Assembly: GCA_007859995.1 (NCBI GenBank)
Contig: SMSL01000002.1
Span: 124,001-188,000 of the forward strand
From: Candidatus Brocadiaceae bacterium S225
GTDB taxonomy: Bacteria > Planctomycetota > Brocadiia > Brocadiales > Scalinduaceae
Length of the DNA: 64,000 nucleotides
Reading direction: 5' to 3'
Shown here: positions 41,744-47,651 of the stretch, one piece after another
How positions within the stretch are numbered: position 1 is the first letter of the stretch
How the letters are laid out: every line of letters begins with the position of its first letter
Notes under the pieces: generated by a model
What the model saw: only the letters and a program-made list of their open reading frames with translations
Told to the model about the DNA's origin: nothing
Database searches by the model: none
Translations under genes and position numbers: made by a program

Positions 41744-43096
41744 CTACATATTTATATACCGTTTATTTTGTTCTTTCAGCTTCTTTTGCATTTCTTTAGC
41801 CCATTTTATTATTTTGTTTATATCTGTCGCCTTGCCTCCCGTTGTAAACCGTAATTGCCTTCCTTCAAATATTTTCTTTTCTTGACCATTTGCAACAACC
41901 GTTGCTTTCCCTTTTGTTACAGTAACAAAAACCGTGTATTTTGATACCCTTATATCAATATTACTATTGTTTGAAGTTATAACGTTATCTTTGGCGGCTA
42001 CCATAAATGGTTTATCATCTGCCTTAATAGCAATGAGTATTTGCCCCTTTATAAGATTGAGGTTTCTGCTTTTAACAAACTTAATTGTTGTATTAACATC
42101 CATTATGACATAAGTACCATCTTTGAGGAGAAAAGATGCTTTACTCCCTTTTCCTGTCTTCAATGTGGCACCATTGTGGATTTTAGATTCTGATGATAAT
42201 GGTTGCCAATTTATGCTGGCATTCGGAAGTATTTTAACAGTACCTGTCGATTCCAGGAAATTCGCTTTAGTCGGAAGTGTGAAAACTAGAAAAATAACAT
42301 ATACCAGTAAAATACCGCTGCCTAATAAAATACCAAATCGTTGAACCGCTTTCTTTGTAGGTCTAATGGCAAGGATACCGACTTCGTAGAGAATGATCAT
42401 GGGTAAAGCTGTCATGATCTGTGTAAATGGATCTGGTGGTGTTATTACTGCGGCGAGGATAAATATAATAAGGATTGCATACATCCGCCATTTAATAAAA
42501 TCCTCTGCCTTAAGCATTCCTATCTTAGAAATAAACAACATTACAAGGGGAAGCTGAAAAACAATTCCAAGTGCGAGTGTCAGCATCGTGACCAGCGAGA
42601 TATACTGACTCATTGTTATCATCGGCTGAATGCCTCCACCCAATATTTTTATCAGGAATTGAAGGCCGTAAGGTATTAAGAAATAATACCCGAATAATAC
42701 ACCTGTCACGAATGCAATGTATGAAATAGGAGCAAAAGTTTTTACGTATCTGCGCTCTTTTTTAAATAAACCTGCTTCTACAAATCTCCAGACTTGATAT
42801 AAGATTATAGGGTATGCCATAAAAACAGAGGTTATCAGGCACAGTTTTATATAAGCATAAAAACCTTCCTGGTAGCTCAGTACTTGAAGCGATTGTGACA
42901 GCCCCAGATTTTTCATAGTGATGCTATGAGGTCTTTTGATGATATCAAGGATTTTTGCCTTAAAGAACCAGTTGATAAAGAATAACACAATAACGATGAG
43001 GATCGACTTTATAATCCTTGCTCTCAACTCTTCAAGATGTTCGCTTATGGGTAATCTTTTTTCTTTAAGTTTTTCTTCTTCCGTTGGTTCTGGCAT
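41744..43096 (-). CDS. tatC: TatC translocase fused to a periplasmic FecR domain
   Basis: Residues about 15-245 form a standard six-helix TatC: the LPISEHLEELRARI start, the FVEAGLFKKERRYV loop, the YFLIPYGLQFL segment and AVITPPDP (before helix 6). TatC alone usually ends there, at about 250 aa. Here an extra hydrophobic segment (256-274) would return the chain to the periplasm, followed by a FecR-like domain (about 280-425) with alternating strands such as LKTGKGSKASFLLKDGTYVI and a final EGRQLRFTTGG. The last 20 residues are charged. No frameshift is visible. The gene is convergent with the phosphatase gene; tatA/B are not adjacent. Confidence 0.9.
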   Translation of the reverse strand: MPEPTEEEKLKEKRLPISEHLEELRARIIKSILIVIVLFFINWFFKAKILDIIKRPHSITMKNLGLSQSLQVLSYQEGFYAYIKLCLITSVFMAYPIILYQVWRFVEAGLFKKERRYVKTFAPISYIAFVTGVLFGYYFLIPYGLQFLIKILGGGIQPMITMSQYISLVTMLTLALGIVFQLPLVMLFISKIGMLKAEDFIKWRMYAILIIFILAAVITPPDPFTQIMTALPMIILYEVGILAIRPTKKAVQRFGILLGSGILLVYVIFLVFTLPTKANFLESTGTVKILPNASINWQPLSSESKIHNGATLKTGKGSKASFLLKDGTYVIMDVNTTIKFVKSRNLNLIKGQILIAIKADDKPFMVAAKDNVITSNNSNIDIRVSKYTVFVTVTKGKATVVANGQEKKIFEGRQLRFTTGGKATDINKIIKWAKEMQKKLKEQNKRYINM

Positions 43097-43613
43097 TTTT
43101 TAATGTTGTCCTGTAAGCCGTGATCTGTAGAAAGTAATGCTAATAAAATGTATTATTTGCATATTTGTAATATATATTTCAGTAATATTCAGGATGAGTG
43201 TGATTGGTATTTCTGGTAGTATTTTATACCATACGGTTGTGCAGTCAAAACCAGCTTAACCATAGCTTATAGAAAAAGTATTCAGAGCGTAGGCAAAAAA
43301 AATTATCTACTGAAGGACTGATACCTGGTCTCAGGTAAATACATACACTACAAATTTGCGGGAAGTTTGTACTTGCAAAAAATCTACTCCCGTAATTCCA
43401 GACCCTGGATAAGGCCGTTTCTCACCCTGAAATTACTTATTTTAAGGTGAGATTATAATACTAAGAAGAAGTTTAAATTACAAGATTCAATATAATTATA
43501 CATGTTTATCGCACTCCAGAGGGGGATCAGAAAAGCCTTGCAAGGGTTATTGGTTTTTGATACCATTGCTTCTAAAGCCTTGTCACTCTTTCTCTTAATT
43601 AGGAGACAATCCC
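43097..43613. other. Divergent promoter gap between tatC and ribH
   Basis: 517 bases without a gene. CTCACC (43421-43426) can pair with GGTGAG (43446-43451), extended inward by further pairs, giving a hairpin that is not followed by T's. I looked for FMN-riboswitch motifs before ribH and found none. The ribosome binding site TAGGAG precedes ribH. Both flanking genes start away from this gap, so it should hold two promoters. Confidence 0.5.
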
Positions 43614-44081
43614 ATGGGAAAATCATTTGAAGGCAACCTTATTGGTAAGAATAAGACCTTCGGAATAGTTGTTAGCAGATTTAATAGTTTTATTACAAAG
43701 AGGTTGTTGGAAGGTGCTCAGGACTGTCTCGTTAGACATGGCACGAAGGAAGATGATATCGATGTATTTTGGGTCCCGGGAGCGTGTGAGTTGCCGATTA
43801 CGGCTATGAGGCTTGCCAAAAATGCTAAGTATGATGGAATAATTTGTCTCGGGGCGGTAATACGTGGTGAGACTCCCCATTTTGATTATGTATCAAGTGA
43901 ATCCGCGAAGGGCATTTCTGAAGTAGGACTTCAAACAGGCATACCAACAATTTATGGTGTTATTACAACAGAGACATTGGAACAAGCTATAGATAGAGCC
44001 GGAGCCAGGGTTGGTAACAAAGGTGCGGAGTCCGCGCTTACCGCCTTGGAGATGGTGAATCTGTTTGATGAAATAAAATAG
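43614..44081 (+). CDS. ribH: 6,7-dimethyl-8-ribityllumazine synthase
   Basis: Penultimate enzyme of riboflavin synthesis, joining a pyrimidine and 3,4-dihydroxy-2-butanone 4-phosphate. The segments [19 protein letters not shown], the VPGACELPI loop and [15 protein letters not shown], including the catalytic His of the last, are diagnostic. It has 155 aa, the usual length, and TAGGAG upstream. It lies 22 bases before nusB; a ribH-nusB pair is frequent in bacteria. Confidence 0.96.
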
Positions 44082-44103
44082 TATTTTTTATGGAGAGTTA
44101 TGG

Positions 44104-45411
44104 ATGCGGAAAAGAACGCGATCCCGAGAAATTGTATTACAGGTTCTTTATCAATTAGAGATTCGTGGTAATGACGTCATAGCTGAGGTAGACGCCTTCT
44201 GCATTGAACAGGGCAAAGAAGCCGAAGTAAGTGATTTTGCCATAAAACTGGTAAGAGGGTGTATTCAAAAGATAAAAGAAATAGATAAAAAGATAATTGG
44301 TATTTCTGAGAATTGGGAATTACAAAGGATGCCGGTTGTGGACAGAAATATTTTGAGGTTGGCATGTTATGAACTTTTTTATATGAATGACATCCCTCCA
44401 AAGGTATCTATCAACGAGGCGATTGATTTAGCGAAAAAATACAGTACTGAAAAATCAGGTATATTCGTAAATGGTATATTAGATAAAATATATTCACTAA
44501 ATATAAAGAACGGTAAAAAGGTACAAGAAATTACAACAAGTATAAAGGGTATGGATGTCTTAGGAAAGGCAGAAAGAGCCGGAGGTGATTTGCATATCCA
44601 TACGGATTTTTCAGATGGGACCATGTCTCCTACACAAGTGGTTAAGGAGGCGTCGAGACTTAACCTGCGTACAATCGCAATAACCGATCATGATACAGTT
44701 GATGCTATAGAAATTGCTCAAATCGCTGGAAACATGGAAGGAGTAGATATTATTCCTGCAATAGAGCTCTCTTCTAATTATAATTCGGTAGATATTCATC
44801 TTTTAGGTTATTTTATTGATATAAAGAACAGTGCCCTTTTAGAGAAATTAGCTGAGTTACGTTCTGAAAGAGTAGAACGAATTAAGGAAATAACAAAGAA
44901 GCTCAGGGCTTTGGGTGTTAACATAGAACATCAAGAGGTTTTTGATGTTTCTAAAGAGGGGACACCAGGGCGGATGCACATAGCTGATGTTTTATGTAGT
45001 AAAGGTTACTGTAGCTGTATTCGAGAAAGTTTTCAAAAATATCTTTCTGATAATGGGCCGGCTTATGTGCCCAAGGAGGCGTTAACATTAAAAGACGCTA
45101 TAGAACTTATAATTTCTTCTGATGGCGTTCCGGTGCTTTCACATCCCGGTGTTAATAAGAGAGATACACTAATACCAAAGATGGTGGAATACGGTCTGCA
45201 GGGGATTGAGGTTTATTATCCGACACATCAACCGGAAGCCGTAAAGAGATATATGCGGATTGCAAAAAAATATGATCTTGTTGTAACCGGTGGCTCTGAC
45301 TGCCATGGTAACCGAAAACCAGATATTGCGTTAGGGAATATCAGGATAAGTGATGACCTGGTTGACAAGATTAAGGACAGACGCGACAATATGGTTGCTG
45401 CCTTGAGCTAA
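44104..45411 (+). CDS. nusB: NusB fused to a PHP-domain phosphoesterase
   Basis: Residues about 3-132 form NusB, the boxA-binding antitermination factor: TRSREIVLQVLYQLE, VVDRNILRLACYEL and KVSINEAIDLAKKY are its signatures. A linker then leads to a complete PHP domain (about 160-435) of the YciV/TrpH (3',5'-nucleotide bisphosphatase or RNase AM) type. Metal-site motifs are DLHIHTDFSDG (162-172), TDHDT (194-198), the Glu of AIELSS, LSHPG and GGSDCHG. The reading frame is continuous. The two halves are normally separate genes. The PHP half could be an enzyme for RNA ends or nucleotides; coupling to antitermination is inference. Confidence 0.88.
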   Translation: MRKRTRSREIVLQVLYQLEIRGNDVIAEVDAFCIEQGKEAEVSDFAIKLVRGCIQKIKEIDKKIIGISENWELQRMPVVDRNILRLACYELFYMNDIPPKVSINEAIDLAKKYSTEKSGIFVNGILDKIYSLNIKNGKKVQEITTSIKGMDVLGKAERAGGDLHIHTDFSDGTMSPTQVVKEASRLNLRTIAITDHDTVDAIEIAQIAGNMEGVDIIPAIELSSNYNSVDIHLLGYFIDIKNSALLEKLAELRSERVERIKEITKKLRALGVNIEHQEVFDVSKEGTPGRMHIADVLCSKGYCSCIRESFQKYLSDNGPAYVPKEALTLKDAIELIISSDGVPVLSHPGVNKRDTLIPKMVEYGLQGIEVYYPTHQPEAVKRYMRIAKKYDLVVTGGSDCHGNRKPDIALGNIRISDDLVDKIKDRRDNMVAALS

Positions 45412-45464
45412 GAGAGCTGTTTGGAATATTATAAGGTTGTTTTTGCCTTTTGTTGTATAAAATT

Positions 45465-46433
45465 ATGGGTTGGTTTTCAAAAAAAAAAACAGGAACAGCA
45501 GCAGATGTAGAAAGCAAATCCTGGTCTCCATTTCAAAAGCTTAAAAATAGTCTCACAAAAACACGCAGTAAAATTACTTCTAAGTTCAAGGACCTGCTTT
45601 CATTCAAGAGGAATATTGACGAAGGCGTGTTGGAAGAATTAGAAGTCGTATTACTTGAGTCAGACATAGGGGTCGGCCTGGTAACCAAGATAATACAGGA
45701 TATCAGAGATGCCTGGAAATCTAAGGAAATTGAAGACACAACAGGTGTTTACGATTTCTTGAAAAATGATCTCAAGCAAAGCCTTAAGGATGGGAATTCT
45801 TCAATAAAGATCGCACCCGCTCCTCCAACCGTGATTATGGTTGCAGGTGTCAATGGCGTAGGCAAGACAACGTCGATTGCAAAACTGGCCAATTTATATA
45901 TAAAACAGGGCAAGAAGGTAATGTTGGCAGCCGGTGATACCTTTCGTGCTGCCGCAACGGAACAACTGGATATATGGAGTAAAAGAATTGGCGCTGATAT
46001 TGTGAAACATCAGTCCGGCGCTGACCCCTCTGCAGTTACGTTCGATGCGCTTGAAGCCAGCTTAAGCAGGGGGATAGATATCTTGATAGTTGATACAGCA
46101 GGGCGTTTACATACTCATGAAAATTTGATGAATGAGTTGACAAAGATAAAGCGGGTAATATCAAAAAAAATTGAGAATGCGCCGCATGAAGTGCTCATGG
46201 TTTTGGATGCCACAACGGGACAAAATGCCATTTCTCAAGCAAAATTATTTAAAGAAGCAGTTGGTGTTACGGGAATATTTCTATCAAAACTTGATGGTAC
46301 TGCTAAGGGCGGTTCTATTTTGGGAATGCGCAAAGAGATAGATGTACCGGTAAAATATGTCGGCCTTGGTGAAGGTATAGATGACATTCAGGAATTTGAT
46401 GCAGATAAGTTTGTGGATGCTTTGTTTGATTAG
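45465..46433 (+). CDS. ftsY: Signal recognition particle receptor FtsY
   Basis: A 322-aa SRP receptor GTPase. A basic N-terminal A region is followed by the N domain and the G domain with GVNGVGKTTSIAKLA, DTFRAAATEQL, DTAGRLHTHENLM and KLDGTAKGG. The open frame starts with a TTG at 45450; the ATG at 45465 (MGWFSKKK) fits the family better. No long acidic domain precedes it, unlike E. coli. Confidence 0.96.
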   Translation: MGWFSKKKTGTAADVESKSWSPFQKLKNSLTKTRSKITSKFKDLLSFKRNIDEGVLEELEVVLLESDIGVGLVTKIIQDIRDAWKSKEIEDTTGVYDFLKNDLKQSLKDGNSSIKIAPAPPTVIMVAGVNGVGKTTSIAKLANLYIKQGKKVMLAAGDTFRAAATEQLDIWSKRIGADIVKHQSGADPSAVTFDALEASLSRGIDILIVDTAGRLHTHENLMNELTKIKRVISKKIENAPHEVLMVLDATTGQNAISQAKLFKEAVGVTGIFLSKLDGTAKGGSILGMRKEIDVPVKYVGLGEGIDDIQEFDADKFVDALFD

Positions 46434-46477
46434 AAAAAAGGTAATTGCCAAACAAGCCGAGGAAAATATTCACTAAA

Positions 46478-46500
46478 TCCCCTCCTTATGAATGAGGGGA
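46478..46500 (+). terminator. Possible terminator hairpin after ftsY
   Basis: CCCCTC at 46479-46484 pairs with GAGGGG at 46494-46499 around a nine-base loop. It is 45 bases after the ftsY stop. It is not followed directly by a T run, so termination is uncertain. The same neighbourhood ends in a GAGACACAAAGCCACAAAG-like string typical of dispersed short repeats. Confidence 0.35.
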
Positions 46501-46664
46501 AAAGGGGTGGTTTTAAATAAATAAGTTTCTGCCGGCTTATTGAGCAATTACAGAAGAAGCATTGAATACACTCTCCATTTTACAACTTTTTCTTCTCTCC
46601 AAACATCCTCAAGAAAATATAGAACTCGCACAGAGACACAAAGCCACAAAGAAAATGAATGAAA

Positions 46665-47651
46665 ATGAAAGATAATATCTCAAGAAGGACTTTTCTCAAG
46701 ACAGGTATTGCCGTCGGAGCAGGTCTTTACGGTCTATCATATTTGAGCTCATTTGAGAGGCCAAGATCTTTTAAGGCGTTCAAAGGAAATAGTTTAAAAA
46801 AGGGCCTGGTAGTTGTTCGTGGTGATGTTGACGAAAGGAATGATGAAGGTTCAGTAATAAGGGAAATGGTGAATAGGGGAATCAGGGCCATTGGTGGAAT
46901 GGATAAGCTGGTATCCAGGGGTGATAATGTTGTTATCAAACCGAACATAGCATGGGACAGGAAACCGGAATATGCGGTAAACACAAATCCATTTGTTGTT
47001 GCCGCGCTGGTTGGAATGTGCCTGGAAGCCGGGGCAAATAGAGTAAAAGTGTTTGATCATACCTGCGCCTCAAACCCGGAGACTTCATATACAAATAGCG
47101 GAATCGAAAAGGCGGCGAAAGAAGCGGGCGCTGCGGTTAGATTTGTTAACAAAGAACTTTTTAAGGATCTTAAGATACCGGATGGTAAGGTGCTTGCTTC
47201 ATGGGAGTTTTATGAAGAATTAATTTATCAGGATAAAACCGATGTGCTGATAAATGTTCCTATAGCAAAACAACATAGTGCGTCCCGTTTATCTATGGCG
47301 CTTAAAAATACCTTGGGAATGGTAGGTGGTAACAGAGGGTCGCTTCATAAGGATATACATCCTAAAATAGCAGACCTGAATAAAGTAGTTAAGGTTGACC
47401 TTACTATTCTTGACGCATTCAGAACTTTAAGACGACATGGACCAACCGGTGGAAGATTAGAGGATGTTGATAATAATGTTGAGACTGCCAGAAGATTGGT
47501 GTTTTGTGTTGACTCTGTGGCCGTGGACTCTTACGGCGCTACCTTGTTTGGATATCAAGGCAAGGATATAGGTTATATCAGAGAATCGCATGAAGCTGGG
47601 CTCGGAGAAATTGACTTTAAACTAAGAGGTTTTGAAGAAATAACCGTTTAG
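46665..47651 (+). CDS. DUF362 protein with twin-arginine signal
   Basis: The start carries a Tat signal: SRRTFLK, then a hydrophobic stretch (TGIAVGAGLYGLSYL) and a short neutral segment. The remainder (about 45-328) is the DUF362 fold, with NVVIKPNIAWDRKPE and LINVPIAKQHSASRLSMALK. DUF362 proteins are often linked to iron-sulphur clusters, but this one lacks a ferredoxin Cys motif. The first ATG is 46659; the second (46665) gives the same signal. The product should cross the inner membrane folded, via TatC. Function unknown. The last 27 bases around its stop recur beyond the RNase HI gene. Confidence 0.8.
   Translation: MKDNISRRTFLKTGIAVGAGLYGLSYLSSFERPRSFKAFKGNSLKKGLVVVRGDVDERNDEGSVIREMVNRGIRAIGGMDKLVSRGDNVVIKPNIAWDRKPEYAVNTNPFVVAALVGMCLEAGANRVKVFDHTCASNPETSYTNSGIEKAAKEAGAAVRFVNKELFKDLKIPDGKVLASWEFYEELIYQDKTDVLINVPIAKQHSASRLSMALKNTLGMVGGNRGSLHKDIHPKIADLNKVVKVDLTILDAFRTLRRHGPTGGRLEDVDNNVETARRLVFCVDSVAVDSYGATLFGYQGKDIGYIRESHEAGLGEIDFKLRGFEEITV

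Follow-up and report, generated by a model that had tools for sequence, protein, structure and literature searches.

What a FecR-type domain is doing on the C-terminus of a TatC protein is the question raised by one gene in the 64,000-nucleotide stretch of the marine anammox bacterium Candidatus Brocadiaceae bacterium S225 analysed here (the window). TatC forms the core of the Tat machinery, which transports folded proteins across membranes. An open problem of anammox biology is how one and the same set of Sec and Tat translocases can supply the cell envelope as well as the anammoxosome; a FecR domain carried by TatC had been put forward as one piece of the solution. The architecture itself is not new: a TatC-FecR fusion was published for one genus, Kuenenia, by Medema et al. 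in 2010, who called it unique and speculated that proteins might be sorted to the anammoxosome by means of it (PMC2881027), a report that the first-pass annotation of this locus did not mention. New here are the occurrence of the fusion in further families of the same class, f8 among them (f numbers denote families), and the absence of the anti-sigma parts of FecR-type regulators.

Sequence and structure of the fusion protein

The gene is open from its ATG to the stop codon and encodes one unbroken protein of 450 residues (Table 1). The genome is close to Candidatus Scalindua, and the closest named record shows 95% identity over the whole length of the protein. Residues 19-232 match the Pfam TatC family PF00902 with 216 bits (cut-off 25.1) over profile positions 1-208 of 208, and the TatC model TIGR00945 is matched with 189 bits (cut-off 132.7). 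The Pfam FecR match reaches 37.1 bits (cut-off 24), and when the C-terminal part was scanned alone, a check proposed in the first-pass annotation, FecR was recovered with 39.9 bits (E 5.9e-10). A search of the PDB with the single C-terminal sequence gave no match; a profile was needed, and by sequence alone the profile of this part finds both PupR (6ovk, E 1.4e-8) and BDI_1681 (4m0n).

Table 1. Positions of the features discussed in the text; numbers without a locus label refer to the window.
Feature	Position	Strand	Remark
tatC-fecR fusion gene, 450 aa	41744..43096	minus	only TatC found in its own genome
TatC core, residues 13-247	42356..43060	minus	six membrane segments
Seventh transmembrane segment, residues 254-274	42275..42337	minus	behind the positive loop RPTKKAVQR
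FecR-type beta domain, residues 307-419	41840..42178	minus	Pfam PF04773 at 311-398
Conserved C-terminal motif (GRQ...GG....W) and helix, residues 412-449	41750..41863	minus	
Intergenic region, tatC-fecR to divergent ribH	43097..43613		
TatC with FecR-unrelated extension	L060, L094, L095, L098, L100 (f16); L097, L101 (f45); L096 (f79)		
Other FecR-domain proteins of the same genome	L109 2910-4847; L110 2804-5317, 7761-8966		

An AlphaFold model of the fusion protein, built with 46 relatives (mean pLDDT 81.6, pTM 0.57), comprises the TatC helices, a helix at 248-272, an all-beta domain at 278-418 and a final helix at 426-449; the mutual orientation of the TatC and FecR domains in this model is uncertain. 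In two fold comparisons, model residues 13-247 matched the TatC structures of E. coli, Aquifex and others with Z-scores of 21-22.6, and residues 307-419 matched PupR and BDI_1681 at Z 16 and an rmsd of 1.6 Å (for 6ovk, Z 16.0 and 1.6 Å over 113 residues). The annotated arrangement of a full TatC and a FecR-like beta domain in one frame is thereby borne out, the first by the end-to-end PF00902 match in the 450-residue frame and the second by the agreement of Pfam, profile and fold. A weaker fold match was also seen between model residues 274-361 (41774-42277 in the window) and the adhesin retention domain 5ix9 (Z 7.4), and the same interval has a weak match to the NCBIfam model retention_LapA (E 0.0076).

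For the FecR part, dN/dS is about 0.1-0.25 in all but one of nine comparisons; the exception, from the closest pair, is 0.75 and rests on very few changes. These ratios show that purifying selection acts on the FecR part. It also diverges faster than TatC: the Scalindua and Brocadiaceae copies are only about 30% identical. In the Kuenenia stuttgartiensis protein kustc0286, which is present in single copy, TatC is likewise followed by a FecR domain outside the cytoplasm (PMC2881027); the window protein is its Scalindua orthologue, and the low identity of the FecR part between the two families is accompanied by the loss, in the window protein, of a Gly-Thr pair present in most f5 sequences.

Membrane topology and the signal-peptide site

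Hydropathy analysis reveals a strong seventh segment at residues 256-274 (mean 2.68), directly behind the positively charged loop, and together with the modelled helix at 248-272 this supports the additional membrane segment of the first-pass annotation. TatC is known to have an N-in topology, and according to the positive-inside rule positively charged loops face the cytoplasm. Since the loop that precedes helix seven, RPTKKAVQR, is positive, as expected of a cytoplasmic loop, the FecR domain is predicted to lie on the trans side of the membrane, in keeping with the periplasmic placement suggested earlier. The trans side would correspond to a periplasm-like space or to the anammoxosome lumen.

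The TatC part shares its core fold and its signal-peptide residues with E. coli TatC (9dzz), which, however, ends after six helices and has no trans-side domain. In the E. coli protein, signal peptides are contacted by His12, Glu15, Phe94 and Glu103 (PMC13323110). These residues align with His20, Glu23, Phe105 and Glu114 of the window protein, all four of which are invariant across the 46 relatives, and from this conservation the TatC part should work, with its signal-peptide site intact.

Absence of the anti-sigma parts

In the regulators PupR and FecR, too, a single membrane helix is followed on the periplasmic side by a FecR-type beta domain (6ovk; 4m0n). The fusion, however, has TatC where those regulators have their cytoplasmic anti-sigma domain, and it lacks the STN-like subdomain. 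Neither the anti-sigma domain DUF4880 (PF16220) nor an STN-like subdomain gave a Pfam match in the TatC-FecR protein, and in the model the FecR domain is followed by the helix at 426-449. Homology to PupR runs through the conserved tryptophan and ends at residue 146 of the 219-residue chain, before the STN-like subdomain, and the C-terminal motif and helix (412-449) likewise stop where that subdomain would start. FecR and FoxR are further known to cleave themselves at a Gly-Thr pair (PMC9249621). This site, whose position rests on the alignment, is absent from the window protein, from Scalindua and from f8, and is kept only in part of f5.

These observations bear on the view that the domain is a true receiver of envelope or iron signals, switching Tat export or transcription as FecR does. 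While the fold is indeed that of FecR and PupR, both the anti-sigma domain and the STN-like subdomain are missing, no DUF4880 was detected in 24 genomes of the class, the genome of the window among those without a detected copy, and the self-cleavage site has been retained only in part of f5. Signalling of the FecR/FecI type was rejected on the DUF4880 result, the siderophore and envelope-stress reading of the first-pass annotation is not upheld, and a signal receiver in the wider sense is improbable. Most of the Brocadiales genomes searched yielded no FecR-domain protein besides TatC. The genome of the window encodes three others (Table 1), which by eye appear to be exported, one of them with TPR-like repeats.

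Distribution of the fusion

All 75 available genomes of the class were searched for the fusion. Every Brocadiales genome with a complete tatC gene carries the FecR part, and no exception was encountered among those searched; shortened matches either lie where a contig ends or belong to the broken genes of G040 and G056. The phylogenetic spread called for by the first-pass annotation thus covers all complete Brocadiales tatC genes and extends to families f7, f8 and f9 of the same class, where the full-length fusion occurs in one, seven of nine and one genome, respectively; the other two f8 genomes gave no TatC match. The Pfam FecR score of the f8 proteins stays below the cut-off (at most 17.5 bits), but hhalign identifies the f8 and Brocadiales C-termini as homologous over 155 columns (E 4.5e-18). 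Two genomes of f6 possess a plain TatC of a distant lineage, which would fit loss as well as replacement.

A profile search of the phylum covered 392 genomes, of which about 355 belong to other classes, and among the matches listed none from outside the class extended past approximately position 280. The TatC tree is compatible with a single origin, the fused group being weakly supported (80/20). The domain may have been acquired in an ancestor within the class, from a FecR-like membrane protein that would have contributed its membrane helix together with its first periplasmic subdomain.

The split copies in G040 and G056 could be taken as a sign that a sequencing error had joined two genes, or that the FecR match arose by chance. 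Yet the breaks in these two genomes resemble a homopolymer deletion and a short duplication, one and the same frame is shared by dozens of related genomes, the similarity to FecR is real by sequence, profile and fold, and the purifying selection on the FecR part likewise speaks against an error. An artefact was therefore rejected and is extremely improbable, and neither a separate C-terminal gene nor a want of FecR similarity, the two grounds for doubt in the first-pass annotation, was found.

Relation to anammox

The fusion occurs throughout the Brocadiales, and the Tat system of Kuenenia was predicted to be anammoxosomal (PMC2881027). Both observations fit the suggestion of Medema et al. (2010) that the domain serves to direct Tat export, or the translocase as such, to the anammoxosome. 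However, f8 has the homologous fusion, and hydrazine synthase alpha was found in none of its nine genomes, either by family or with full-length HzsA as the query. Several Scalindua drafts also lack a hydrazine synthase match, as do, for PF18582, the genome of the window (G000), G004 and G008, probably on account of incomplete assembly, so that absence from a draft weighs less than absence from a complete genome; an absence in nine of nine f8 genomes is nevertheless hard to explain by gaps.

Because the fusion is found in f8, it probably predates anammox and probably arose for something other than the anammoxosome. Its presence in class members without hydrazine synthase argues against an evolution for the organelle, and anammox as the origin of the fusion is disfavoured on the same grounds. 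Later reuse in the organelle could still apply, and as an explanation of the domain anammoxosome sorting is unlikely. Furthermore, non-anammox relatives with the fusion allow the role of the domain to be compared.

In f7 and f9, PF18582 is an ambiguous marker of anammox (11 and 16 distant matches), which is why full-length HzsA was used as well; both families carry distant HzsA- and HzsB/C-like genes. Two genomes outside the Brocadiales, with 11 (G063) and 16 (G069) HZS_alpha-domain matches, encode fused HzsC-HzsB-like proteins close to HzsA-like ones: 618 and 859 residues in G063 (L093, 6157-12503), and 666 and 1032 residues in G069 (L091, 753-5778). These proteins have about 22-32% identity to the anammox hydrazine synthase.

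Proposed role of the FecR domain

Another TatC with an additional folded domain facing the periplasm is that of Myxococcus xanthus (9e03; PMC13323110). Its domain differs in being an insert within a periplasmic loop, with no involvement of a seventh helix, and it forms a homotrimer, contributing further contacts among the TatC subunits of the core complex. In PupR, the periplasmic region that contains the FecR-type subdomain binds the receptor's signalling domain (PMC9249621). By analogy with this trimer and this receptor binding, an interaction module is favoured: the FecR part may act as a fixed module for protein-protein interactions, located at the trans face of the Tat core complex, a reading to which we assign a probability of roughly 0.5. 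The fusion would be a functional TatC with a seventh helix added at its C-terminus, from which the FecR domain hangs on the trans side. There it might stabilise or cap the TatC oligomer, hold emerging exported or partner proteins, or both, and would have no part in an anti-sigma relay. Since no other TatC was found in the genome, whose assembly is 79% complete, the fusion is expected to serve all Tat export. The fast divergence of the FecR part is compatible with both a lineage-specific role and a simple structural one. The control of Tat export or scaffold envisaged in the first-pass annotation is possible and comes close to the interaction module preferred here. The fusion also joins the small number of natural trans-side extensions described in TatC.

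Binding of another protein by the periplasmic part of PupR (PMC9249621) is also in line with a docking site, one that would anchor a particular exported redox or cell-envelope protein rather than support the oligomer. The neighbourhood offers a candidate. Divergent from tatC, positions 43614-47651 of the window encode ribH, a NusB-PHP frame, ftsY and a DUF362 protein bearing a Tat signal. The divergent arrangement of tatC-fecR and ribH is conserved in Scalindua, f2 and f5; the whole order of the cluster recurs in Scalindua and f2, and f5 keeps it as far as ftsY. However, this conservation is confined to the Brocadiales, and docking is hard to separate from an oligomer module with the present data; we regard it as unlikely, ranking it above a later role in anammoxosome export and the latter above true signalling. 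The tatA genes lie apart from tatC and thus lend no operon support. The 435-residue frame at 44104-45411 apparently combines NusB with a PHP-type phosphoesterase-like domain, as judged by eye.

Other TatC extensions in Planctomycetota

The TatC proteins of f16, f45 and f79 (Table 1) also possess a seventh hydrophobic segment, followed by a C-terminal extension of 160-190 residues. The extension of one f16 member (L060) gave no Pfam match on scanning, and a diverged FecR domain was rejected for these families by a negative profile comparison (probability 0.1%). A model of the extension, of moderate confidence (mean pLDDT 66), looks alpha/beta. TatC may thus have gained trans-side domains repeatedly in Planctomycetota, with FecR in the class and an unrelated domain without a Pfam family in f16, f45 and f79, serving a wide trans-side function of which the FecR form was later used for anammoxosome export; we hold this only tentatively. 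If true, it would point to a widespread Tat receptor function on the trans side that is absent from the textbook TatC. The TatC of f14 has a weak HEAT-like match.
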